Shown here piece by piece: positions 1,439 to 56,673 of a stretch of 64,000 nucleotides of DNA; position 1 is the stretch's first letter; the number at the start of each line of letters is the position of its first letter. Below the pieces are notes generated by a model. That model worked only from the letters and a program-made list of their open reading frames with translations. It did not search any database and was not told the DNA's origin. The position numbers were made by a program, and so were the translations under genes. Source of the stretch: a bacterium (GTDB lineage Bacteria > Actinomycetota > Acidimicrobiia > Acidimicrobiales > Bin134); contig JAPOVT010000013.1 of NCBI GenBank assembly GCA_026708015.1, forward strand, positions 1-64,000. Reading direction: 5' to 3'.

Positions 1439-1953
1439 TCAGGGCATGTCCAGGAGGCTCCTACCACCCCAGCACTCGACGGTCCTGTCCGTGCGCAAAC
1501 CACAGGTGTAGCCCGAGCCGGATGAGACCGCCGACCAAGTGCCGTCCCTGGTAGCTGTCCAAGAACCAGCGACATTGTCGATGATTGTGACGTGGATTGG
1601 AACCGGTTCGGGCGTGGGAGTGGGAGAGGGCTCGGCATCGGGAGTTGATACCGGCACTGCTGTCGGTTCCGGGGTCGGCAACGGCGTGGGCGAAGGCAAC
1701 GGCGTCGGGCTAGGAGTGTTAGGGGGCGATGGTGCTGGAACCGGAGAAGCATCGGCACCGAGGACTGCTACCGCAGTTGGAGTAGGGGCTGGCGCAGGAC
1801 CCGGTGTCGCACTCTCAATTCTTGTTGAGGGGCAGCGGGAATCACATGATCCTTTGCCCGGACAATGCCTTCCCCTTCACTGCTATCGCTTGAGCAGGCC
1901 GTGACCGCTATGGCCACAACCAAGATCAATGCAGTCCAGCGAACGCTCACCAT
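1439..1953 (-). pseudogene. Frameshifted second RCC1-repeat lipoprotein gene
   Basis: The start is good: a GGGGGCG-like ribosome site, then MVSVRWTALILVVAIAVTAC, a lipoprotein signal with Cys20, followed by SSDSSEGEG. In that frame translation stops at 1768. A different frame, open from about 1850 down to 1439, carries a Pro/Thr linker (PAPAPTPT..., PSPTPTPEPVP) and one RCC1-type unit (CGLRTDRTVECWG). At least one frameshift therefore separates signal and body around 1780-1850, and only a single repeat remains. The architecture matches the gene at 30-623, so this is a decayed paralogue. Confidence 0.65.
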
Positions 1954-2010
1954 CGCCCCCTTGCAAGCAATAGACGCTTCTCGACCTAGTTTGGTTCCTA
2001 TTCTTCTGAT

Positions 2011-2991
2011 TCAGAGCCGGAGCAGGCGGGTGGCGTTGGCGTTGAGGGTTTCGGCCAGGTCGGCCACGTCGGGGCCTGTGCCTCGGTCCCAGCCGCCGAA
2101 GTTCGTGCCGTAGACCAGGCGGTCGATGCCGTATTGCTCCAGAGCGAGATTGAGCTCGGCGGGGCCGGTGATGTGGCAGTCGAACCATAGGCGGCTGAGG
2201 GCTCGGTCGAAGGCCCCTGATTCCTTGATCCACTCGGGGGCGGCGGGGCGGCGCTCGGCCAGCTTGCGGAGCTTGGACAGGACGATGGGGGTGGTGCCGC
2301 CGCCGTGGGACAGGCACAGATCCAGATCAGGGTGGCGTTCGGTGACCCCGCCGAACACCAGGGTGGCCACCGCCACCGTCTCCTCATAGGAGTACTCCAA
2401 CACTAGGTCCAGGTCCCAGCGGCGCAGCCGGGGATCGAGCAGCGGGCCGTCGATGCCCGACTGGGTGGGATGCAGAAAGTGGGGCACGTCGAGCTCCGTA
2501 CACAGCGACCAGAGCTGGTCGAGGGCCGGGTCGTCCAGCGGGGTGCCGAAGTCGGTGCCGGTGTAGCCGGCCAGGAGGCCCAAGTCTCGCACAGCTCGCT
2601 CCAGTTCGGCGCAGGCCGCGTCGAGGTCCTGCATGGGCAGCGCAGCCAGACCGACGAAGCGATCGGGACGGGCAGCCACAGCGGCGGCCAGATCATCGTT
2701 GTGGCGGCGGCAGAAGTCGATGGCCAACTGAGGCTCGATGAAGTGGAGATAGGTGAGCGGGTTAGGCGACAGGGCCTGCACTGCTATCCCCTGGGCGTCC
2801 ATGGCCTCGAGGCGCATATCCAACTCGGTAAATAGAGACCCTCGGTAGGCCACCCCGTTGAGCTGGTAGCCGCCTACCCGAAACCAGGGGGTGCCGTCGT
2901 CGTGGGCACCGATCTCGGGGCCGCACGGGCCGGCCGCGCCCATAGTGCCCTCCAGCACGATGTGGGCGTGGACATCGATGAGCCCGGTCAT
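2011..2991 (-). CDS. Amidohydrolase (ACMSD-like, amidohydrolase 2 family)
   Basis: Metal-dependent TIM-barrel hydrolase/decarboxylase of 326 aa. The start at 2991 is chosen because it gives MTGLIDVHAHIV, with the metal-binding HxH at residues 8 and 10, preceded by GGAGG nine bases upstream; the 23-residue extension to 3060 is untypical. Other family marks are HFLHPT, LSHGGGTTPI and an acidic residue in GTNFGGWD near the end. Related enzymes decarboxylate or hydrolyse aromatic ring-cleavage intermediates. It ends a leftward operon with a CMD-family protein, an SDR and an acyl-CoA dehydrogenase, so a role in degrading a ring or branched carboxylic acid is likely; the substrate is unknown. Confidence 0.75.
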   Translation of the reverse strand: MTGLIDVHAHIVLEGTMGAAGPCGPEIGAHDDGTPWFRVGGYQLNGVAYRGSLFTELDMRLEAMDAQGIAVQALSPNPLTYLHFIEPQLAIDFCRRHNDDLAAAVAARPDRFVGLAALPMQDLDAACAELERAVRDLGLLAGYTGTDFGTPLDDPALDQLWSLCTELDVPHFLHPTQSGIDGPLLDPRLRRWDLDLVLEYSYEETVAVATLVFGGVTERHPDLDLCLSHGGGTTPIVLSKLRKLAERRPAAPEWIKESGAFDRALSRLWFDCHITGPAELNLALEQYGIDRLVYGTNFGGWDRGTGPDVADLAETLNANATRLLRL

Positions 2992-3034
2992 GGGGGTGAG
3001 CCTCCGCTGCCTGCCTTGGAGGTGGCGGGCAAAC

Positions 3035-3793
3035 CTATTGGCGGCCTTCCATGATCCCATCGGCGCCGGGCAGCCAGGAGGCCACGCCGGAGATGGGGAT
3101 GGCGCACACCACCGCCTCGGTGATCTCGGCCTCGGAGGCTCCGGCGTTGCGGGCGCCGTTGGCGTGGATGTTCACGAACCGGCTGGAGAACTCCGCGGCG
3201 TTGATGGTGCACAGCAGCAGCTCAACGTGCTTGGCGTCGAGCATGTTCTCGGCCAGCGACCACTGGCGCATCAATACATAGCCCTCCAAGGCTCGAGGGG
3301 CATGGTCGGCCATCACCTCGATGTAGTCGGGCACGAAACCGAAGTAGCTCTGGAAGTAGTCCAGCGCCGCCTGGCGATCGAGGGTGAAATCGGGAATCGG
3401 CTCGGTGGACTGGTCGGCAGCGATGTCGAACGCCTGGTCAATGGCCCGGGCGAAGGCGTTGTAGGTGGCTTCGCCCCGGGAGATGAGCACGGCCAGCGAT
3501 GCGCCCCGGGCGTCGCTCAGGCTCAACCCCAGCTCGCGAGACCGGGTCATCTCCCTAAGGGCTTGCTCCGGCTGGCACCGAACCGCGGCGGCGCAGGCCA
3601 TGTACAGCGCCTTGGCCCACGCGGGGCAGGCCCCGTCGCGGTCGGTCACGTCGCGGATGCGGGCGTAGCCCTCGGCAAACTTGGGGGAGATGGCGGCCAG
3701 TTCGCCGCCAGCCAGTGCAGGACTGCCCAACTCGCTGTGGACCGCGTTGTTGGACCCAGCTTGCGCATCTCTTGCAGCGGCTTGCATGGTCAT
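3035..3793 (-). CDS. Carboxymuconolactone decarboxylase/AhpD-like protein
   Basis: Protein of 252 aa that resembles two tandem carboxymuconolactone decarboxylase (CMD) folds. The first spans roughly residues 45-115 (FAEGYARIRD...ACAAAVRCQPEQALREM) and the second roughly residues 150-245 (YFGFVPDYIEVM...LLLCTINAAEFSSRFVNIHANGARNAGASEAEITEAV). The AhpD CxxC pair is absent, which argues for a decarboxylase-like or lactone-processing role rather than peroxidase. It lies 42 bases after the SDR gene and 43 bases before the amidohydrolase, in one operon. The exact reaction is unknown. Confidence 0.65.
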   Translation of the reverse strand: MTMQAAARDAQAGSNNAVHSELGSPALAGGELAAISPKFAEGYARIRDVTDRDGACPAWAKALYMACAAAVRCQPEQALREMTRSRELGLSLSDARGASLAVLISRGEATYNAFARAIDQAFDIAADQSTEPIPDFTLDRQAALDYFQSYFGFVPDYIEVMADHAPRALEGYVLMRQWSLAENMLDAKHVELLLCTINAAEFSSRFVNIHANGARNAGASEAEITEAVVCAIPISGVASWLPGADGIMEGRQ

Positions 3794-3835
3794 CTCTTGC
3801 CTCCCTTGGCCATTTTCATTGTCAGAGCTTCATCA

Positions 3836-4594
3836 TCAAAGCTTGGACGCTTCTCCGCCGTCGATCACGAAACACGAACCGGTAACGAACCCGGACGCCT
3901 CCGATGCTAGGTAACAGACCAGCGGTCCGAGCTCATCGGGGTGGCCCATGCGGCGTACAGGTATCTTGCGCAGCCGGGCGGCCAGGGTGTCGGGATCGCC
4001 CAACACCGCGGCCTGGGCATCGGTTTCGAACGCACCGGGGGCGATCACGTTCACCCGGATGTTGTAGCGGGCCCACTCCCCGGCCAGGGCCTCGGTGAGC
4101 CGCAACAGCCCGCCCTTGGAGGCCGAATAGGCGGCCAGGGTCGGCTTGCCCTTGAGCCCCGAAGTAGAGGCCACGTTGATCACCGAGCCGGGCCGGGCAG
4201 CATCGATCCAGTATGTGGCGGCTTGTCGGGCCAAAGCCGCCGGTGCGGCCAGGTTCACGGCCAGCACCTCGTCGAACACATCGTCAGGCTGGTCGACGAA
4301 CTTGGAGGCGGGAGCGATGCCCGCGTTGTTGACCACCGAGTCGAGTCGGTCGAACCGGCTCACCGCCTCATCCACCAGCCCGGCCACTGCGTCTCGGTCC
4401 CGCATGTCGCACGGCACCGCAGCCACCGCGTCGCCCAGTTCGTCGGCCAGCGAGTCCAGGGCATCTGTGGAGCGGGCGGCGGCCACCACCCTGGCCCCTT
4501 CGGCCACCATGGCCCGCACTGCGGCCTCTCCCAACCCCCGGCTGGCCCCGGTCACCACCGTCACGTGGCCGTCAAGGCCCCAATCCACCGCCAT
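3836..4594 (-). CDS. Short-chain dehydrogenase/reductase (SDR)
   Basis: Classical NAD(P)-dependent SDR of 252 aa. The cofactor motif TGASRGLG is at residues 15-22, NNAG near residue 90, the catalytic Ser/Tyr/Lys in NVASTSG and YSASKGG near residues 145-160, and the NVIAPG turn follows. The C-terminus (GFVTGSCFVIDGGEASKL) is typical of 3-oxoacyl/alcohol dehydrogenase-type SDRs. Only three bases separate it from the upstream acyl-CoA dehydrogenase, so the two are co-translated. It probably oxidises a hydroxyacyl or alcohol intermediate in this catabolic operon. Confidence 0.85.
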   Translation of the reverse strand: MAVDWGLDGHVTVVTGASRGLGEAAVRAMVAEGARVVAAARSTDALDSLADELGDAVAAVPCDMRDRDAVAGLVDEAVSRFDRLDSVVNNAGIAPASKFVDQPDDVFDEVLAVNLAAPAALARQAATYWIDAARPGSVINVASTSGLKGKPTLAAYSASKGGLLRLTEALAGEWARYNIRVNVIAPGAFETDAQAAVLGDPDTLAARLRKIPVRRMGHPDELGPLVCYLASEASGFVTGSCFVIDGGEASKL

Positions 4595-4597
4595 TGC

Positions 4598-5752
4598 CTA
4601 CTCCCCCTCCTCGCCCTGTCGGTCGGCCGCTTCGTCGCACAGCCGGCTGGCGATGCCCAGCCGGAGCACTTCGGAGGCCCCCTCGTAGATGCGCATGGGT
4701 CGGGCCTGGCGGTAGTAGCGCTCAATGTCGGAGCCCCGAATGAGCCCCCATCGGCCCATCACCTGCACGCAGCGGTCAACCACCCGGCTGGCCGCCTCGG
4801 TGGCGGCCAGCTTGGCCAGCGACGACCGGTCGAGGTGGGCCGACGGATCCTCCCGGGCGGCCTCGGCGGTGGCGTAGGCCAACAGCCGGGTGGCCTCCAA
4901 CTCGGCCCAAGAGTCGGCCAGCAGGCCCGCGACTGGTCCCAGCCGCACCAGTGGCCGGCCGAACTGTTCGCGGACCGCCGCGTGGTTTGCCGCGCAGGTC
5001 AGCGCCCCGTCCATCAGCCCCACCGCGGCCCCGGCCACTGAGATGCGAAACACCGACAAGGTGGCCAGAACATGGCGGAATCCGGCGCCGGGTTCGCCCA
5101 ATCGAGCCGAAGCCGGCAGGCGCACCCGGTCGAAGGTCACCTCGCCCAGCACATGGGGGGCGATGATCTCCGGAGAGGGCTCGATCGACACACCAGGAGC
5201 ATCGGCGGGCACCAACACCAGCGAGAACCGGTTCTCCTCCCGGGCCATGGTGGTGTAGAACCCAGCCGCCCCGGCATTGGAGATGAACGACTTGGCCCCG
5301 TTTAATTCCACTTCATCGTCGTGGTCGGTCAGCGTGGTCTCGATTCCCCGCAGATCGGATCCCGCCACCGGCTCGGTGAGGGCCAAAGCAGCCAGCACCT
5401 CAGCGTTGGCCACCTTGGGCAGCCACTGCTCCCGTTGCTCATCAGTGCCGGCCACGGCAATGGCGTAGCTGCCGATGCCTTGGAGGGCGAACAACGAGTC
5501 CAAGTGCGACGAAGCCCGCATAAGGGCCTCCCGAACCACGCACACCGCCAGCGGGTCCACTCGCTCGTAGCGACCGCCATAAGCAGCGGGCACCATCAGC
5601 GAGCAGAGGTCGCTGCCCCGCAGCACATCGAGGGTGGGCTGATGTATGTGGTTGGCCTCGTCGGCCTCCGCGGCGAACGCGGCCACTTGGCGGGCCACCG
5701 CCCGGGCCTCTTCTTGGATTGCCCGTGTGCCGGAGTCGAGCTCGAACGCCAT
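4598..5752 (-). CDS. Acyl-CoA dehydrogenase family protein
   Basis: FAD-dependent acyl-CoA dehydrogenase of 384 aa, the normal family length. Visible features are the N-terminal helical domain, LALTEPVAGSDLRGIET (substrate/FAD contact), the central beta domain, and the C-terminal helical domain with RQARPMRIYEGASEVLRL, which carries the usual catalytic-base region. It is the first gene of the leftward operon and is divergently transcribed from enoyl-CoA hydratase and acyl-CoA ligase genes across a 55-base gap. Together they provide activation, dehydrogenation, hydration and oxidation steps of a beta-oxidation-like route for an unidentified carboxylic acid. Confidence 0.88.
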   Translation of the reverse strand: MAFELDSGTRAIQEEARAVARQVAAFAAEADEANHIHQPTLDVLRGSDLCSLMVPAAYGGRYERVDPLAVCVVREALMRASSHLDSLFALQGIGSYAIAVAGTDEQREQWLPKVANAEVLAALALTEPVAGSDLRGIETTLTDHDDEVELNGAKSFISNAGAAGFYTTMAREENRFSLVLVPADAPGVSIEPSPEIIAPHVLGEVTFDRVRLPASARLGEPGAGFRHVLATLSVFRISVAGAAVGLMDGALTCAANHAAVREQFGRPLVRLGPVAGLLADSWAELEATRLLAYATAEAAREDPSAHLDRSSLAKLAATEAASRVVDRCVQVMGRWGLIRGSDIERYYRQARPMRIYEGASEVLRLGIASRLCDEAADRQGEEGE

Positions 5753-5807
5753 ACGATGCCGGACAGTACGCGCTAGGAATTAATCGCGCTACAGCAGGGG
5801 GACCACC
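5753..5807. promoter_or_regulatory. Divergent promoter region of the acyl-CoA operons
   Basis: This short gap must hold promoters for both operons. It contains a direct repeat GCGCTA at 5770-5775 and 5786-5791 (16-base period) around an AT-rich GGAATTAAT core, possibly a binding site for a shared regulator. The rightward GTG start at 5808 is preceded by AGGGGG. Confidence 0.35.
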
Positions 5808-6578
5808 GTGAGCGACATAATCGTTGAGCGAAACGACCGAGTCGTCTGGCTGAGGCTGAACCGCCCCGAGCGATTGAACTCCTACGACCGCAACACCATC
5901 GACGAGATCATCGCCGCCTTCCGGGAGCACGTCGACGCCGGGGTGGTGGTGATCACCGGGCAAGGGCGGGCGTTTTGCGCGGGGGGATATCTGGCCAATT
6001 TGGCCGAAGCGAACTTCTATGAGCTGCGGACGATGTTCTACGGCTCGCTGGAGCTGTTCGACGCCATTCGCAACGCCCCCATGCCGGTGATCGCCGCGGT
6101 GAATGGGCCGGCCTTCGGCGGCGGCAACGAGTTGGTGGTGGCCTGCGACTTCGCCATAGCCGCCGAGTCGGCCGAGCTGGGCCAGACCGGGGTCAAGGTG
6201 GGCAGCGCCCCAGTGCTTGGGGGCACCAACCTGTTGGCCATGACCGTCGGGGAGAAGCGGGCCAAAGAAGTGGCCTTTTTGTGCCGCAAATACACCGCTC
6301 AGCAAGCCTGCGACATGGGCTGGATAAACGCAGTGGTGCCCGACGAGGAGCTGGAGAACGAGGTGCTGCGGTGGTGCGATGAGCTGCTGGCCATGAGCCC
6401 CCGCTATCTGGAAGCGGCCAAGATCAGCTCCAATGTGTACTGGAACCAGCTGCGCGACAACATGGCCTCGGGGCTGGGGATGCTGGCCCAGGCCATCGGG
6501 TCGCCCGACATGATCGAGGGCGCCACCGCGTTCATGGAGAAGCGCCGCCCGCAATTCCCCCCGAGAACCGCCCGATGA
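5808..6578 (+). CDS. Enoyl-CoA hydratase/isomerase family protein
   Basis: Crotonase-fold protein of 256 aa with a GTG start. N-terminal LRLNRPERLNSYD, the first oxyanion-hole segment GQGRAFCAGGYLAN near residue 55 and the second, NGPAFGGGNELVVACDFAIAA, near residue 95-115 are all present. A catalytic Glu lies in GGGNELV; the second position reads AELGQTGVKVG instead of the usual PEhxxG, so hydratase versus isomerase or another crotonase chemistry cannot be fixed. It heads the rightward operon and partners the acyl-CoA ligase 31 bases downstream. Confidence 0.85.
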   Translation: MSDIIVERNDRVVWLRLNRPERLNSYDRNTIDEIIAAFREHVDAGVVVITGQGRAFCAGGYLANLAEANFYELRTMFYGSLELFDAIRNAPMPVIAAVNGPAFGGGNELVVACDFAIAAESAELGQTGVKVGSAPVLGGTNLLAMTVGEKRAKEVAFLCRKYTAQQACDMGWINAVVPDEELENEVLRWCDELLAMSPRYLEAAKISSNVYWNQLRDNMASGLGMLAQAIGSPDMIEGATAFMEKRRPQFPPRTAR

Positions 6579-6609
6579 GTTTGCGCTGCCCCAGCCACAG
6601 GCCTGTGCC

Positions 6610-8280
6610 GTGACCCGCTACTACGACCAGTACCGGCCCACCTTCGACGACAAGGGGCTGTGGAGCGCGCCGGCAGTGCTGGCCGAACGGGCCCGAACCC
6701 ACGGCGACAAGACCTACTTGGAGGTGGGCTGGACCTCCGAGCGGTTCACCTATGCCCATAGCCACGAGATCGCCCAGCGGGTGGGGCGGGGGCTGCTGGC
6801 CGGGGGGGCCGCTCCCGGCGACCGGCTGCTCATCATGGCGCCCAACTCGGCGGCCTACATCTGGAGCTGGCTGGGTTCGGCAGTGGCCGGGATGGCCGAG
6901 GTGCCGATCAACACCGCCTATCGGGGATCGTTCCTCGAACACCAGACCACCACAGTGTCGCCGTCAGCAGCGGTGATCCACGCCGACTACGCCGACCGGT
7001 TTGTTGAGCTGCCCGACGCGGTGGGCTCCATCGGCTGCTTCTACCTGCTGGGCGACGACGGCAAGATCGCCAAGGGCGGACGGGTGCTGGACGAGGCCGG
7101 TCTGCGGTGGCAGCGCTGGGACACCCTGCTGAGCGACGGCAACGCCGATCAAGCCCTGCCCGAGGTGTCGTATCGGGACCTGGGGTCGGTGTTTTTCACG
7201 TCAGGCACCACCGGGCTGTCCAAAGGGGTGATGATGCCCCACGCCCACATGCACCTGTTCGCCGATGAGTGCGTGTCGCTCACCCGGCTGACCAACGCCG
7301 ATGCCTATATGTCGTGCGGGCCGCTGTTCCACGGCAACTCGCACTTTCTGGCCGCCTATCCGGCGCTGATCGCCGGGGCCCGCTACGTGCTCCAAGAGCG
7401 GTTCTCGGCCAGCCATTGGCTCGAGCAGGTGCGGCACAGCGGGGCCACCGTCACCAACTTCGTCGGGGTGATGATGGACTTCGTGTGGCAGCAGCCCCCC
7501 ACCGAAGCCGATGCCGACAACCAGCTTCGGTGCGTGTTCGCCGCTCCCACCATGTCGAGCGTGCTGGATGAGTTCAAGGCCCGATTCGGCATCGATGCGT
7601 TCGTGGAGGTGTTCGGGCTAACCGAGACGTGCATGCCCATCCTCACCCCCTACGGGGAGGATCGCCCGGCGGGAGCGGCCGGGCTCTTGAACCGGGACTG
7701 GTTCGACATCCGCCTGGTGGACCCCGACACCGACGAGGAGGTGCCGGTGGGAGAGGTTGGCGAGCTGGTGGTGCGCTCCCGGGTTCCGTGGACCACATGC
7801 ATGGGCTATTACGGCATGGCCGAGCAGACCTGGGACGCGTTCAGGAATCTGTGGTTCCACACCGGCGACGGACTCCGCCGGGACGCCGAGGGCTGGTACT
7901 ACTTCGTCGACCGCCTCAAAGACGCCATCCGCCGCCGGGGGGAGAACATCAGCTCGTTCGAGGTGGAGCAGGCCTTGACAGGCCACGAGGCCATTGCCGA
8001 GGTGGCGGTGGTGGCAGTACCCGCCGACCAGGAAGCCGGAGAGGACGAGGTGCTGGCCGCGGTGGTTCTAGAGCCCGACGCCGCCCTCAGCGCCGATGAA
8101 TTCTGGGCGTACGCCGACCGTCGGCTGCCCTATTTCGCGGTGCCTCGCTACGTGCGCTTCACCCCTGAGCTGCCCAAGACCCCGTCAGAAAAGGTGCGGA
8201 AAGTGGAGCTGCGAGACCAGGGGGTGGACGATCAGACATTCGACCGAGGCCCCATCAGCCGACCGAAGGATCGCCGGTGA
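6610..8280 (+). CDS. AMP-forming acyl-CoA synthetase/ligase
   Basis: Adenylate-forming enzyme of 556 aa with a GTG start. The P-loop VFFTSGTTGLSKGVMMPH is near residue 200, the A5 region VEVFGLTETCMP follows, then the hinge region WFHTGDGLRRD...FVDRLKDAIRRRGENISSFEVE, and the C-terminal catalytic lysine is in LPKTPSEKVRKVEL. It would activate a carboxylic acid to its CoA thioester using ATP. Its place between the enoyl-CoA hydratase and the divergent acyl-CoA dehydrogenase suggests that it supplies the substrate of this pathway. Chain type (fatty, aromatic, carnitine-like) is not evident. Confidence 0.88.
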   Translation: MTRYYDQYRPTFDDKGLWSAPAVLAERARTHGDKTYLEVGWTSERFTYAHSHEIAQRVGRGLLAGGAAPGDRLLIMAPNSAAYIWSWLGSAVAGMAEVPINTAYRGSFLEHQTTTVSPSAAVIHADYADRFVELPDAVGSIGCFYLLGDDGKIAKGGRVLDEAGLRWQRWDTLLSDGNADQALPEVSYRDLGSVFFTSGTTGLSKGVMMPHAHMHLFADECVSLTRLTNADAYMSCGPLFHGNSHFLAAYPALIAGARYVLQERFSASHWLEQVRHSGATVTNFVGVMMDFVWQQPPTEADADNQLRCVFAAPTMSSVLDEFKARFGIDAFVEVFGLTETCMPILTPYGEDRPAGAAGLLNRDWFDIRLVDPDTDEEVPVGEVGELVVRSRVPWTTCMGYYGMAEQTWDAFRNLWFHTGDGLRRDAEGWYYFVDRLKDAIRRRGENISSFEVEQALTGHEAIAEVAVVAVPADQEAGEDEVLAAVVLEPDAALSADEFWAYADRRLPYFAVPRYVRFTPELPKTPSEKVRKVELRDQGVDDQTFDRGPISRPKDRR

Positions 8281-48649: not shown

Positions 48650-48840
48650 ACGGGAGGCGCTAGCCGCCTGCTGGACCAACGAGCTCTGGGGATAGCTCTC
48701 CGAACACAGATCAGGTACGCCTCGTCTGCGGTTGACTAGGAAGCGGTTGTCCCGTCCGCTGGTAGTGTTGCCATCGTGTTCGCTTGGGGGGATGGGTTAG
48801 CGGGAGCGCGGGGCCTGGGCGTAGAAGCCATCTCGCTTCC

Positions 48841-51800
48841 ATGATGGCGAGCGAGATGACCGGCGATGCCAGTGCTGTTCTTGATGGAGCGGTATCCAAG
48901 CTCGAATCGCATGCCTATGAGCAGACTGACGGAGTATGGCTTGAAGTTCTGACCGCTGAAGTGGCTCCGCACATCCGCGACTGGAATATCGGTGACTGCT
49001 GGCGCTGGTCGGAATGGCCCGATAGAGACGAAGTGATGCCCGAAGGCACGCCGTCCGTCGACGTCGGTATTGACCTTGTGGCCCGCCGACGCGATGACGG
49101 GAAGTGGGTGGCGATCCAGGCGAAGGCCCGACAGCTTGACGAGATGGGTGAGGGTGCCCCGATTCTCTCGCGGGAAATGAACAAGTTTCTGTCCGCAGCG
49201 GCGGACAAGGACATTTGGGCCGAACGGTGGCTGGCGGTCAACGGAAACGTCCCTATCAGCGGGCACTCACCTGGCAAGGTCGCCATGTCGGGCACCCCTG
49301 TCAAGTTGGTGAACGTTGCCCAAGCCGTTGAGAGGCAAAGGGCAGCGCTGGATGCGGCATCAGAGTTCGACCAATCCCCTAGTGGCAGCGCTGGGACTGG
49401 GCGCAAGCCTGCTGATGATGGTGAGCCATTCTCACAGACGCGTTCTGATATGCAGCGGGAAGCCGTTGACTTGGCTGTGGAGCGGCTGAGAGACAATGAG
49501 CAGGCCGAAGAGGTGGGTATCCCAAGAGGCGAGGCCCGAGGGCGCATCGTCCTGCCCTGTGGTGCTGGGAAGACGAGGATTGCTCTGCGGATCGTCGAAA
49601 AATTGACCTACCAGGGCGAATTGTCTGTGGTGCTGTGCCCGTCGATAGCGCTTGTGGCGCAGATACGCCGCGAATTCCTAGAGCACGCCGAGCTTTCGCT
49701 GAGGTCAATGGCGGTTTGCTCTGACCAGGGCGTCGCGGCTGATGAGGAGAAGGTGGCCAACGCCGATGACGCCACCCTGGACAGGGGTTTGGAGACTGTT
49801 GAAACGCTGAAGGGCTGCCCCGTCACGACCGATCCGTCCGAAATCGCCGACTGGATAAGAGAAAGGCGCACAGGTCCCGCTAGCGAGATGGTGAGCATCA
49901 TTTTCGGCACTTACCAGTCGGCCAGGCGAGTGTCGGATGGCATCAAGCAGGCCGACGCGGCTGATGCCTTCAAGGTGCTGATCTGCGACGAAGCCCACCG
50001 CACTGCGGGAGTGCGACGCCGCAAGCGCAGCACTGCCGCTGATGTGATGCTGAGCGACTTCACTCTTTGCCACGACCGCGACGCATTCCCTGCGACCTAC
50101 CGCGTCTATCAGACAGCTACCCCGCGCATCTACGGCGACAGCGCCCTGGCTGAGACAGCAGGCCGCTCTGACAAGCATGACTTTGTGGTCAGACATATGG
50201 ACGACCAGTCTGTTTTCGGGGTGGAGCTTTACCGCCGCTCCTACGTAGATGCCGTCAGCAACGGGTGGCTGTCGGACTATCGGATCATCGCCATGGGCAT
50301 CGGTGACCAGGCGGCAATCGACCTCGCCAACCTGCTGGTCCGCCAAGCTGACGAGGAGGCAGCGCGCCAAGCGGAAGCGGCAGCGACCGGGGGGAAGCCT
50401 CAGTCGCGATCCAGGCGTGGGGAGATGCTCCCTACCACTGGCGATTATCTCAAGGGAATGGCTTTCGCGTTGGCGATGGGAGGGGGAGCCGTATCAAAGG
50501 ACGGAAGCTACGTTCCGATCAAGTCGTGCATCGGGTTCCTGAACACCATCGCCCGCAGCAAAGCCATGACCGATGTTCTGCAATCCGATGCGGTGAAGGA
50601 ATGGATCGCCGCCGAGGTGGGGGAATCAATTTCCGATTTCAAGTTGGAGCATCTTGACGCGTCTACGCCTGTTGCTGGGCGCGACGAGGCTAAACGCCAC
50701 CTGGCCAAAGCCACCTCCGATAATCCGCATGCCGTTCTCAACGTCGGGATATTCGGCGAGGGCACCGACTCCCCGTCGCTGTCGGCCGTAGCCTTCCTGG
50801 AACCGCGCAAATCCTCCATCGACGTGGTTCAAGCAGTCGGGCGGGCAATGCGCCGCGCTCAGGGCAAAGACCTCGGCTACATCGTGGTCCCCGTGGTCAT
50901 CCCCCCGGGCGTGGACGCTGAGCGGCATCTCGCCACCAGCGACAGGCACGAGGGCTGGCGAGAACTCGGCGACATACTCCAGGCGCTTCGCGCCCACGAC
51001 AAGCGGATCGAGGACTCGCTGCCCGAGATGCTGACCATCTCATTGCCCTCTAACCAGCCGCCGCCGTTGGAGATGCGAACAGTCGTGGCAGTGGGCAGAC
51101 CCAGCCAAAGGAACCTCTCATATGCCGTCGTGAAGGGCAGCAGAGACGATGCCGAAGACATCGCCCGCGCCGCGGTGAAGCAAGATCGCCCGCTGCTCGA
51201 CTTCGACGACGCCGAGCCCTTCGCCAAGGCACTGTGGTCAGAGCTCAAAGATCAGCCGACTGCGATGATCGTCCACGTCGAGCGTCCCGACGGCAGCACA
51301 GAGACACGCGAGGACGCAGTGGTACGCCACAAGCCGAAACCCAGCCAAGAGATTGGAGATGTCAACGAGAGGCAGACCAAGCGGCGAGCAGGCAAAATGG
51401 CGAACGGCGAACGCGGCAGACCAGTCCCGAATCCCGCTGAACGCGAGCGACAGCGCAAAGAGCAAGAAGCCCAGAAGAAGGCCGTGTTCGAAGAGCACAT
51501 CCAAGGGGTGCTGCTCGACTTGTCGGAGCAGATGGGCGGCGCCATCGCCATGAACCTGCTGGAGAAGTCGGGTCTGACGGGCAACAAGGTCCAACGCGAC
51601 TTGAACCTGCTCAGAGGCACAGTGAATGAGGCGGCCAGGTACATCCACGAAGAGTCCGAGCTGTCGGTGGCGCTGAACGCCCACTTCGGGCTCGACCAGT
51701 TGTCGGCACCCAAACAGAACAAGCCGAGGGCTGATGGCGCGACCATCGCCGCCTTGCTGTGGATGAACGCGGCGATGCTGCATCAGAGAATCCACTCTGG

Positions 51801-54117
51801 CGGATGGCTCGGACACAGGGGGATAGAAGCCCTCGCAGATGTCAAGGCAGCACCCGAGCCGGACGAGATGTTCCGCGACTCGTGGCAAGCCATCACCAGG
51901 CAGGACTTCCTGCCTGTTATCGAACCAGCGGTGGAAGCCCTGACAGCAGCGAAGAGGACGGGGATGCTCGGCGGGTTTCGCCGCGCCCTTCGACACATAG
52001 CGGGCGAGGCGGAGATGATCGCCGAGACCTACGCCGATATGGGCACAGACCACGCCGGGGCGCTGTTCAATGAGGTCATGGGAGACCAGTCATCTGATGG
52101 CGCGTTTTTTACCCGCCCTGTAGCAGCGGACATAGCAGCGTGGCTGGCATTGGATGCCGTTGACCCTGACAACGATTTGGACTGGTCTGACAGCGATGTC
52201 TGGCGTGCCCACAAGACCGTTGACTTGGCGTGCGGATCGGGCACACTGCTCGCTGCTGTGATGGCCGAGATGAAGCGCCGAGCAAGACTTCACTGCGCTG
52301 ACGACGAACGGTCAGCCAACTTGCAGAAAGTCGCAGTCGAAGAGGTGCTCAAAGGCCTCGACGTGAACCCCGTGTCCCTCCAACTGGCGGCCACCCAGCT
52401 CATGTCGGGCAACGCCGACGTGAAATACCGAAAGATGGGCCTCCACCTGATGCCCTACGGGCCGCAACCCGGTGGTGGATCCGCCGCAGGCACCCTCGAA
52501 CTGTTGGCCAGAAGCGAGATCATCGACTCGGGGCGGCTTTTTGACGATGCAGCCGAATCTGTCACCATCAAGACTGGAGCCGAGACAACACTTGAAGGCC
52601 CCGAAATGGACGACGCGGCAGCAGCAGCCGCGAATGCTCGCATCGTCATTATGAATCCGCCATTCACAAATCGGTCCAAAGCAGGCGAGAAGTTTGATCA
52701 GGATGACCAGAGGGCGCTGCGCAGCAGAATGGACGCTCTTGAAGGAATGCTGGTCAATGCCGATCTTTCGCTGGATGGAGTTCTTGATAAGAACTCCATC
52801 CAGCCAATGTTTGAAACATTGGCCGGATATTGCCTGGCCAAGGACGGCGCAGGGGTCATCGTGATGATCGCTCCAATGGTAATCGCAACGGCAGCGTCAG
52901 CAGAGGTGATGCGCTTATGGATGGCAGAGAGGTTCCATGTCCACACCATCTTGACGAACTTCGCCACCCGTGACGGAAACCTGTCTCAGAACACGGAGAT
53001 AAACGAGAGCATCTTTGTGTTCACCCGCTACGAGGGTTCCCAACACCCGTCACGGATCATCCGTTGGACCGATTCCCCACCAATGAGCAGGAAACCGAGA
53101 CACTGCACACCCTCCTGCGGTCAGCCGATGCGGGAAGACTGCCCGACGGATGGGGCGAAATCTCATACTGGCCTGCCGAGAGGGTCACCGCCGGCGACTG
53201 GACCGCTGCTGTGCTGCGCTCACCTGTTCTCGCATCAGCGGCCGCGGAATTCGCCGATTCCGATGACCTGGCAGCGTTGCAGAGAGAGAGAGAGAGAGAG
53301 AGACGAACCGTCCACAAAACCAACCCGTTGCTCAGCGCCCAATACCGCAGAGCGAAGAGCAAGTGAGACAGGGCAACGTGATGGTTCACACCACGCTTCA
53401 ACCGCTAAACGCCAACTACCGCAGGACGGGACGTCGTCCAGAAGCGATGACGTAGCGGTACACGCGACAGGACAAGCAATGCGCGACGACTACAGCAAGC
53501 AGGACACTGGCGAATTCGAAACTTTCCCTGTGCTGCAATCCAAAGGGGCAGACGGCCAGCAGCGGATCGAGGCGGTGCCCGACGCATATTGGGAGTGGAA
53601 GAAGCCAGGTAAACCCCCAATTTTAGAAAAGGCTGGGCATCTGCTGGTCTCAATGGGTCATCAGCTTTCGACGGCCCGCCTCACCGCGGTCGCCTCTGAC
53701 GAGCGCTATGTCGGACAGGGCTGGATGCCCGTCACAGGCCTCGACCCAGAGGAATCGAAGGCAACTGCCGTGTTCTTGAACTCCACACCAGGACGTTTGC
53801 TGATCCTGCGGTGTCCGGGAAAGACACTGAGATTCCCGTTCTACAACCCCGCCGTCTGGCGCGACCTCCCGATCCCCGACCTCGAAGACGAGCGTATCCG
53901 CGAGACACTGGCGGCCTGTTGGGAGTCGACCCGCCATGTGGAAGTGCCACAGTTCCGTGAAGGCTACTGCGACGTGCGCCGTCAGTGGGACGAGGCGGTT
54001 GCCGATGCGCTCGGCTGGGATGCCGCTCACTTGGCCGAGCTCGGCGGCCTGATTGCCCAAGAACCGCCTGTGAGAGGACTTGCTTACGGGCAGTACGGCG
54101 ACGGAACCGACGAGTAA
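48841..54117 (+). CDS. Type ISP-like restriction-modification enzyme with frame-broken region
   Basis: Single polypeptide of about 1758 aa. N-terminal PD-(D/E)xK nuclease (GIDLVARR...WVAIQAKA, residues 75-96). SF2 translocase: PCGAGKT near 239, ICDEAHRTAG near 382, QTATPRIY near 424, QAVGRAMRR near 664. Gamma-class N6-adenine methyltransferase: DLACGSGT near 1127, IMNPPFTN near 1270. Target-recognition C-terminus. This is the LlaGI/LlaBIII layout. From a C4 run at 53075 to about 53460 the open frame gives nonsense-like sequence; the sensible protein (NEQETETLHTLLRSADAGRLPDGWGE...AAEFADSDDLAALQ) is in another frame that leads into (AG)11 and stops at 53366. The good frame resumes at YSKQDTGEFETF. 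Working state is therefore uncertain. Confidence 0.8.
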   Translation: MMASEMTGDASAVLDGAVSKLESHAYEQTDGVWLEVLTAEVAPHIRDWNIGDCWRWSEWPDRDEVMPEGTPSVDVGIDLVARRRDDGKWVAIQAKARQLDEMGEGAPILSREMNKFLSAAADKDIWAERWLAVNGNVPISGHSPGKVAMSGTPVKLVNVAQAVERQRAALDAASEFDQSPSGSAGTGRKPADDGEPFSQTRSDMQREAVDLAVERLRDNEQAEEVGIPRGEARGRIVLPCGAGKTRIALRIVEKLTYQGELSVVLCPSIALVAQIRREFLEHAELSLRSMAVCSDQGVAADEEKVANADDATLDRGLETVETLKGCPVTTDPSEIADWIRERRTGPASEMVSIIFGTYQSARRVSDGIKQADAADAFKVLICDEAHRTAGVRRRKRSTAADVMLSDFTLCHDRDAFPATYRVYQTATPRIYGDSALAETAGRSDKHDFVVRHMDDQSVFGVELYRRSYVDAVSNGWLSDYRIIAMGIGDQAAIDLANLLVRQADEEAARQAEAAATGGKPQSRSRRGEMLPTTGDYLKGMAFALAMGGGAVSKDGSYVPIKSCIGFLNTIARSKAMTDVLQSDAVKEWIAAEVGESISDFKLEHLDASTPVAGRDEAKRHLAKATSDNPHAVLNVGIFGEGTDSPSLSAVAFLEPRKSSIDVVQAVGRAMRRAQGKDLGYIVVPVVIPPGVDAERHLATSDRHEGWRELGDILQALRAHDKRIEDSLPEMLTISLPSNQPPPLEMRTVVAVGRPSQRNLSYAVVKGSRDDAEDIARAAVKQDRPLLDFDDAEPFAKALWSELKDQPTAMIVHVERPDGSTETREDAVVRHKPKPSQEIGDVNERQTKRRAGKMANGERGRPVPNPAERERQRKEQEAQKKAVFEEHIQGVLLDLSEQMGGAIAMNLLEKSGLTGNKVQRDLNLLRGTVNEAARYIHEESELSVALNAHFGLDQLSAPKQNKPRADGATIAALLWMNAAMLHQRIHSGGWLGHRGIEALADVKAAPEPDEMFRDSWQAITRQDFLPVIEPAVEALTAAKRTGMLGGFRRALRHIAGEAEMIAETYADMGTDHAGALFNEVMGDQSSDGAFFTRPVAADIAAWLALDAVDPDNDLDWSDSDVWRAHKTVDLACGSGTLLAAVMAEMKRRARLHCADDERSANLQKVAVEEVLKGLDVNPVSLQLAATQLMSGNADVKYRKMGLHLMPYGPQPGGGSAAGTLELLARSEIIDSGRLFDDAAESVTIKTGAETTLEGPEMDDAAAAAANARIVIMNPPFTNRSKAGEKFDQDDQRALRSRMDALEGMLVNADLSLDGVLDKNSIQPMFETLAGYCLAKDGAGVIVMIAPMVIATAASAEVMRLWMAERFHVHTILTNFATRDGNLSQNTEINESIFVFTRYEGSQHPSRIIRWTDSPPMSRKPRHCTPSCGQPMREDCPTDGAKSHTGLPRGSPPATGPLLCCAHLFSHQRPRNSPIPMTWQRCRERERERDEPSTKPTRCSAPNTAERRASETGQRDGSHHASTAKRQLPQDGTSSRSDDVAVHATGQAMRDDYSKQDTGEFETFPVLQSKGADGQQRIEAVPDAYWEWKKPGKPPILEKAGHLLVSMGHQLSTARLTAVASDERYVGQGWMPVTGLDPEESKATAVFLNSTPGRLLILRCPGKTLRFPFYNPAVWRDLPIPDLEDERIRETLAACWESTRHVEVPQFREGYCDVRRQWDEAVADALGWDAAHLAELGGLIAQEPPVRGLAYGQYGDGTDE
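53281..53302 (+). repeat. (AG)11 dinucleotide tract inside the R-M gene
   Basis: Eleven uninterrupted AG units within coding sequence, coding alternating Arg-Glu. Gain or loss of one unit shifts the frame by two. One more unit, together with one more C in the run at 53075-53078, would put the sensible upstream frame in register with the C-terminal frame. This is the sequence type used for slipped-strand phase variation in other bacteria. Confidence 0.9.
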
Positions 54118-56019: not shown

Positions 56020-56673
56020 CTAGGCCTTCCATTCTTTGGGCTTGTGGATCAGTTTGCCTGCCCGGGTAGTCACCGGGTCGGGGAGCTGGCAGCGCTCAAG
56101 CAGCTTCCGGTTCAATGTCCGCTTGTCACCGCTCAACAAGCGTCGCGGCTGCTGGGTCTGTTTGTGGGGGTTGACCGTGATGACAACTATTCCCTCCTTT
56201 TCGGCCATCGTGACCGGAGTCTGGAGATCGCTGTCGTTCGACAAGACCAACGCGACTTCCATGCTCTTGTGGCAGGCATCCCGCACTAGATGCGCGCCCA
56301 GAGAGACGTCTGATCCCTTCTCCTCCGTGTGTATCACGCGAGCCATCTTGATCTTCCCCTTCCGATGTTCGCGGGCAAGGGGCAGATTCTTCTCCCTGTG
56401 CTTGAATTGACCCAGGTGGATTTCGACTCCGGCATGCTCTTTGAGGGCACGAATGTAAACATCCTGCCGCTGAGCTAGTCCAGAATCATCAGGCCGATCC
56501 TGAACCCTGGCTGTGAAGTACCTGACAGCATCGACGTGGTGCCCCCGCAGCGAACGACTGGCCAATTTGCGATAGTCGAGCCACTTCAGATCCGAATTGC
56601 CTTTGAGGGCTCCGTAATAGAAGTTGAAGCCATCGACGTACACAATGGCGCTCGGTTGAGGCTGCTGAGACAT
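56020..56673 (-). CDS. NYN-domain (LabA/DUF88-type) ribonuclease-like protein
   Basis: Protein of 217 aa with the NYN/PIN-like fold. The first conserved acid is in IVYVDGFNFYYGALKG near residue 14. KGSDVSLGAHLVRDACHKSMEVALVLSNDSDLQTPV near residues 120-155 carries the other catalytic aspartates. A basic C-terminus follows (QQPRRLLSGDKRTLNRKLLERCQ). NYN proteins are predicted metal-dependent RNases; some take part in RNA decay or phage defence. It stands alone, with its 3' end next to a strong terminator, on the edge of the defence-like block. Confidence 0.85.
   Translation of the reverse strand: MSQQPQPSAIVYVDGFNFYYGALKGNSDLKWLDYRKLASRSLRGHHVDAVRYFTARVQDRPDDSGLAQRQDVYIRALKEHAGVEIHLGQFKHREKNLPLAREHRKGKIKMARVIHTEEKGSDVSLGAHLVRDACHKSMEVALVLSNDSDLQTPVTMAEKEGIVVITVNPHKQTQQPRRLLSGDKRTLNRKLLERCQLPDPVTTRAGKLIHKPKEWKA

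Follow-up and report, generated by a model that had tools for sequence, protein, structure and literature searches.

Homologous, probably DNA-reading segments in offset reading frames behind slippery repeats: a candidate C-terminal switch in Type ISP-like restriction genes of Acidimicrobiales

A Type ISP-like gene with a perfect AG tract

The window, that is, the whole 64,000-nucleotide stretch analyzed here, belongs to contig 13 of a 67-contig, 3.5 Mb genome of the Acidimicrobiales (G000). At 48784–54117 of its plus strand lies an open reading frame of 1777 amino acids as assembled, open throughout, as the first-pass annotation of this DNA had stated. It encodes an Mrr-type nuclease, an SF2 helicase, a gamma-class adenine methyltransferase and a recognition domain. 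Pfam matches to Mrr_cat_2 (6.9e-11), ResIII (6.6e-18) and Helicase_C place nuclease and helicase in one chain; residues 218–753 match LlaBIII (8e-55), and the helicase is similar to those of LlaBIII and LlaGI. The methyltransferase is recognized by the gamma-class motifs VDLACGSGTLL and NPPF, with a weak Pfam match under the cut-off (MTS, 2.5e-4). The order of nuclease, helicase and methyltransferase is that of LlaGI and LlaBIII (Kulkarni et al., 2016; PMC4872093). Unlike in those enzymes, however, the coupler and Type_ISP_C are undetectable in the window gene: Pfam gave no match to ISP_coupler or Type_ISP_C in the whole protein at E 0.001, nor in the recognition domain alone even at E 1, and the gene is therefore filed as Type ISP-like only.

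The recognition domain of the window family differs from Type_ISP_C, and its predicted fold resembles BrxX, CamA and BpuSI. A predicted model of a relative (L058) resembles CamA, BrxX and M.TaqI in structure comparison, and the family's methyltransferase and recognition domain together match BrxX in Foldseek with E 1.8e-15. This fold is thus shared with BREX PglX/BrxX, CamA, BpuSI and M.TaqI, none of which is known to have frame-offset copies of the kind described below. Other relatives are metagenome-assembled Acidimicrobiia, and a plasmid search returned only Type ISP relatives of less than 60% identity. Near the restriction gene, an NYN-domain protein on the minus strand (56020–56673) matches the candidate defence model HEC-09.

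Within the 3′ part of the gene, a perfect AG repeat of 11.5 units occupies 53281–53303 on the plus strand and encodes (RE)n. This putative slippage switch, already noticed in the first pass as (AG)11, is the sole dinucleotide run of at least five units in the window; from composition, one would predict only about 7e-8 tracts of this kind per 3.5 Mb. It is preceded by a segment at 53079–53280 (plus strand), called "mid" here, which joins the methyltransferase to the recognition domain. In homologues, too, the mid segment stands between the upstream part and the recognition domain, as had been supposed, and most of them have it in frame with the upstream part. In the window its frame is shifted to +2 with respect to that part (position mod 3 = 0), and this frame, correctly taken as the sensible one from 53079, runs through the tract to a TGA at 53364–53366.

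The first frame change had been assigned to a C4 run at 53075, considered a second switch. DNA alignment places it elsewhere: at 53060–53063 (plus strand) the window has ATC-CG for ATCGCG, a one-base deletion in non-repetitive sequence about 14 bases upstream of the C4 run, which is thereby dismissed as a switch. Around 53061, relatives read ATC-GCG-TTG-GAC-CGG (I-A-L-D-R), ATCTCGCTCGAC or ATCAACTTGGAC, without the deletion, while the window reads ATC-CGTTGGACCG; the C-runs of 10–20 that some relatives carry near this place are upstream of ~53061. Either a mutation that inactivates the gene or a mistake in the assembly may account for the deletion, and because it is outside any repeat, it is a separate event of one of these two kinds and not part of the mechanism. 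The frame had also been held to be wrong from the C4 run to about 53460. This stands for ~53062–53280 only, where the mid segment in frame +2 is matched by relatives at 42–77% identity; behind the tract (53304–53460), the present frame is that of L057, in which methyltransferase, tract and recognition domain are read without interruption, and so is, on this comparison, the legitimate one. Adding one base and one AG unit does restore a continuous frame, as had been counted. The two frame changes, at the deletion and at the tract, have unrelated causes, and a "compensated" allele is discarded as a mechanism.

With about 73 residues out of frame ahead of the tract, the window allele probably yields no normal enzyme, unless the deletion is an assembly error. 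For this allele alone, decay into a pseudogene after the deletion might be considered, since the lesion is outside the repeat and absent from relatives. Over 1700 codons, however, the remaining frame is undamaged, and the family pattern is retained around the tract; we regard decay as possible rather than probable.

Three copies of one peptide in three registers

A feature absent from the first-pass annotation is that all three reading frames behind the tract hold a copy of the same peptide, with the consensus [VI]HxTxxxLxxxYRK, one copy per frame. With the tract as long as it is now, the mid frame leads into copy 1 (53310–53366, plus strand; VHKTNPLLSAQYRRAKSK followed by a stop; type HKTGPTLSAGYRR). 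Copy 2 (53381–53455, plus strand; MVHTTLQPLNANYRRTGRRPEAMT followed by a stop; type HATLQTLYADYRK) lies in a different frame, 74 nt from copy 1, and like copy 1 soon reaches its stop. Copy 3 (53458–54117, plus strand; VHATGQAMRDDYSK; type HATGQAMRDDYSK) runs on into the recognition domain. When the window stretch was shuffled 20000 times, the motif occurred once in any frame. Codon comparison among relatives indicates purifying selection, as for each copy pN/pS is lowest in its own frame: 0.55 for copy 1 (0.88 and 1.03 in the shifted frames), 0.25 for copy 2 (1.31 and 2.55) and 0.20 for copy 3, the constraint on copy 1 being weaker than that on the other two. The repeated segment, which corresponds to the Type ISP cassettes described below, stands at the beginning of the recognition domain and is a candidate base-reader.

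The same three copies are found in relatives from several genera and families. Copies are spaced by 65, 68, 71, 74 or 131 nt, which is 2 mod 3 in all 21 spacings measured. There are two exceptions: in L050, where the tract is lost, copies 1 and 2 share a frame, and in L057, with a short tract, a degenerate copy 1 is in the frame of copy 2. Furthermore, a tract at this place accompanies 12 of 13 multi-copy genes and none of six single-copy genes (Fisher 2.6e-4). Some multi-copy loci (L215, L050) lack a recognizable tract at present. The tracts at this site consist of 6–35 units of AG, 10 of AC, or G14. The frame across the tract varies between relatives and all three phases occur, the mid frame leading into each of the three copies about equally often. 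Additional C- or G-runs are present in some relatives at two sites farther upstream, and across these the frame changes as well. A second slippery tract (a C, G or AG run) near residue 213 coincides with frame changes in several relatives (L031, L042, L044, L057).

The family thus presents what characterizes a phase-variable locus mediated by simple sequence repeats, a long repeat within the coding region whose length and frame differ between relatives, and also what characterizes C-terminal phase variation, a tract near the 3′ end with a different C-terminus in each frame. Repeat-driven phase variation of this restriction enzyme, as the first pass had suggested, is well supported by comparison and appears probable from the tract types and lengths, the frames, the occurrence of all phases and the further tracts in defence genes of the same genome. 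The suggested route to altered specificity, through residues read out of frame, is not supported; the tract looks instead like a three-way selector among register-offset copies.

A plainer explanation is ON/OFF translational switching, in which a working enzyme comes from copy 3 alone, the other two copies being remnants of a tandem duplication. Such switching by repeats is the common known case among restriction genes. Indeed, copies 1 and 2 in the window family reach their stops 51–72 nt after the copy start (132 nt in L241), so that the fused recognition domain is lost in these phases. As two of the three phases lose it, ON/OFF switching accounts for much of this family. Against this, both the peptide sequence and the offset of copies 1 and 2 are preserved from family to family. 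A further element is an ATG at 53479 within copy 3, which encodes Met in all 13 multi-copy relatives and is replaced by Leu or another residue in most single-copy ones; it is a possible internal start.

Cassette arrays in true Type ISP genes

The principle is seen more clearly in a paralogue (L010) on contig 48 of the same genome, a true Type ISP gene with (AG)13. It matches ISP_coupler (4e-24) and Type_ISP_C, the latter with positions 4–151 in the large ORF and 166–341 in the next one; the protein is therefore not a single chain but split between positions 151 and 166 of the domain. (AG)13 is followed by five cassettes in tandem, each about 40 codons long and closed by its own stop, which lie in different frames; the remainder of the Type_ISP_C domain forms a separate ORF. 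LlaGI and LlaBIII, by comparison, are single chains with one recognition domain (Kulkarni et al., 2016; PMC4872093). In the paralogue the domain is divided behind Loop VI, and its cassette segment occurs in several frame-offset copies.

A cassette search across the order found arrays in roughly 20 of 397 genomes from five families. Among 396 genomes sampled across the phylum, all matches except those in the window's own genome were weak and single, so that arrays as a general actinobacterial feature are unsupported. In total, 19 array loci from five families, with 86 cassettes, were compared, nearly all of them from uncultured assemblies. Each array has 2–7 frame-offset cassettes, one of which is entered by the large ORF. 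For cassettes out of frame with the large ORF, paired between different loci (193 pairs), pN/pS is 0.33 in their own frame versus 1.24 and 2.00 in the shifted frames. Upstream ATG starts are no commoner for cassettes (14 of 71) than for the other frames (27 of 142), and 69 of 71 cassettes stop within 12 codons. Cassettes must therefore be entered from upstream, and the idea that they are independent small genes was dropped. The constant C-terminal half is a separate ORF. In five loci this ORF precedes the large gene, which means that the split is no annotation effect. These arrays bear also on ON/OFF switching: since every Type ISP cassette ends in a stop and the remainder of the domain is a separate gene, no cassette can be the sole "ON" state. 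ON/OFF switching as the whole explanation is accordingly somewhat doubtful.

The register of the cassettes follows a strict rule. Between neighbors without an intervening repeat, the step is 2 mod 3 in 49 of 50 cases, and the lone exception has a C7 run between the cassettes; the nominal binomial p of 1.4e-22 overstates independence, the loci being related by descent. Across a repeat, the steps are distributed 6:4:5 over the three classes. This pattern would be the expected product of slippage at the repeats plus selection for register elsewhere. Homopolymers and AG runs can also be sites of slippage during transcription or translation, and the nearly constant minus-one register between neighboring cassettes would suit a programmed ribosomal or transcriptional slippage that produces several isoforms at once with no heritable switch in DNA. 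The steps across repeats vary by genome, however, and tracts range over AG 6–35, as a change at the DNA level predicts, which makes programmed slippage rather improbable.

Could the arrays be artefacts of assembly or sequencing, or strain chimeras? Several contigs do end in such tracts (for example GA47, C39–51), poly-G artefacts may explain some of the very long G runs found where contigs end, few G12+ runs occur in single-contig genomes of the genus, and the deletion at 53061 could be an error. Yet the same architecture recurs in independent assemblies and families, and two arrays are present in a single-contig genome (G071), indicating that they do not come only from short-read artefacts. 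Moreover, errors cannot yield purifying selection in out-of-frame copies. As a cause of the architecture, artefact is very unlikely and already largely refuted. In G071, the two arrays, which lie apart at C1:285200–286160 and C1:1094280–1095020 (L204, L205), have nearly the same cassettes in common (peptide identity 100% and 95%), a likeness that suggests exchange between arrays.

What a cassette encodes can be read from its alignment with residues 1365–1374 of LlaGI, that is, Loop VI, the numbering having been checked on N1327, R1329, H1368 and R1286. The (RE)n encoded by the paralogue's AG tract falls between Loop V and the cassette, and the small constant subunit starts after Loop VI. In the LlaGI–DNA structure, H1368, G1372 and Q1373 read target position +3, and in LlaBIII it is N1360 that reads +3 (PMC4872093). 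Within one array, the residue aligned with H1368 varies among cassettes (H, N, A, S, C, K).

Other repeats are found in the same genome, where they were counted by pattern search, including further tracts in defence genes. A Type III restriction subunit gene (L009, G000:C48:112000–124000) has (AG)16 at 5983–6014 (plus strand), where the conserved reading frame shifts, and this allele looks OFF from its sequence. In a DISARM-like locus with DrmMI and DrmD (L011, G000:C53:41000–52000; 1875–7100, plus strand), the 3′ end of the methyltransferase gene contains the runs G13, (TC)8 and G11, and with them recognition-like segments that are homologous to one another and recur in different frames; it is possibly a third system on the same principle. 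A third Type ISP-like gene (L138, G000:C7:1–12000; 6334–6523, plus strand) meets G17 and G46 and resumes in another frame near undetermined bases. The genome has 45 G/C runs of at least 9 and 31 of at least 12, many of them near the starts or upstream of genes for predicted secreted proteins; these are a possible wider set of switch loci, of which those at the end of a contig may stem from sequencing errors. In single-contig genomes of the genus, just one or two long G/C runs occur.

A proposed selector of recognition segments

The tracts, the copies, their strict offset, the purifying selection out of frame, the split genes and the recurrence of the arrangement are direct observations. They point to a reading that we consider likely: slippage picks one of several alternative C-terminal (recognition) segments by reading frame. 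In the window gene, the AG tract would act as a slipped-strand switch in living cells and populations, and the frame would select one of three tandem C-terminal segments offset by one register. With copy 1 or copy 2 in phase, the protein would carry a short segment homologous to the recognition domain's beginning and end soon after it, while with copy 3 the whole domain would be joined. A separate chain, initiated at copy 3's conserved ATG, might complement the two phases that lack the fused domain. In the Type ISP arrays, each phase would give a large subunit ending in a different one of 2–7 cassettes, and the chosen cassette, together with the separately encoded constant subunit that supplies the rest of the domain, would complete the recognition domain and change the base read at +3. 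The more far-reaching proposal, to which we give an even chance, is that of a diversity generator: with loop cassettes stored in alternating frames and slippage choosing one, the locus would cycle heritably through specificities without recombination.

Related systems are known. The nearest is C-terminal phase variation, in which a repeat at the 3′ end switches the C-terminus among three frames with different ends, as described for Helicobacter canadensis (Snyder et al., 2010; PMC2823697) and Neisseria gonorrhoeae (Zelewska et al., 2016; PMC5320596). In the parts of these two reports on which we draw, the ends differ in length and sequence and homologous copies are not reported; here, in contrast, the ends are homologous to each other, follow one another in tandem with an offset in register and evolve under purifying selection, and those of the Type ISP genes form part of a split recognition domain. 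In pathogens, the switching of restriction genes by repeats is well known, as a literature search confirmed, and stochastic switching of a restriction-modification gene by repeats is shared with the phasevarions (Type III mod genes and hsdS of pathogens). Those loci are switched ON and OFF, or their recognition domains are shuffled by recombination, whereas here a frame shift would choose among tandem segments. Switching had been thought notable in actinobacteria; variation of homopolymeric tracts is not wholly new there, Propionibacterium acnes being the subject of a species-wide study of indels and homopolymeric tracts (PMC4746626). In the open-licence literature searched, no report of tandem frame-offset homologous recognition cassettes was found. 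The arrangement is both widespread and unusual.

If the proposal is true, alternative DNA-reading segments are stored in different registers of one gene and switched by copying errors at a repeat, with no recombinase. The host genus and related actinobacteria presumably live in sponges, as the genus name suggests, and phase variation of restriction enzymes would then extend to uncultured sponge symbionts of the Actinomycetota. The cassettes would furthermore be a natural set of swappable variants of Type ISP Loop VI, with a predicted effect at target position +3, and may thus bear on the re-engineering of restriction specificity.
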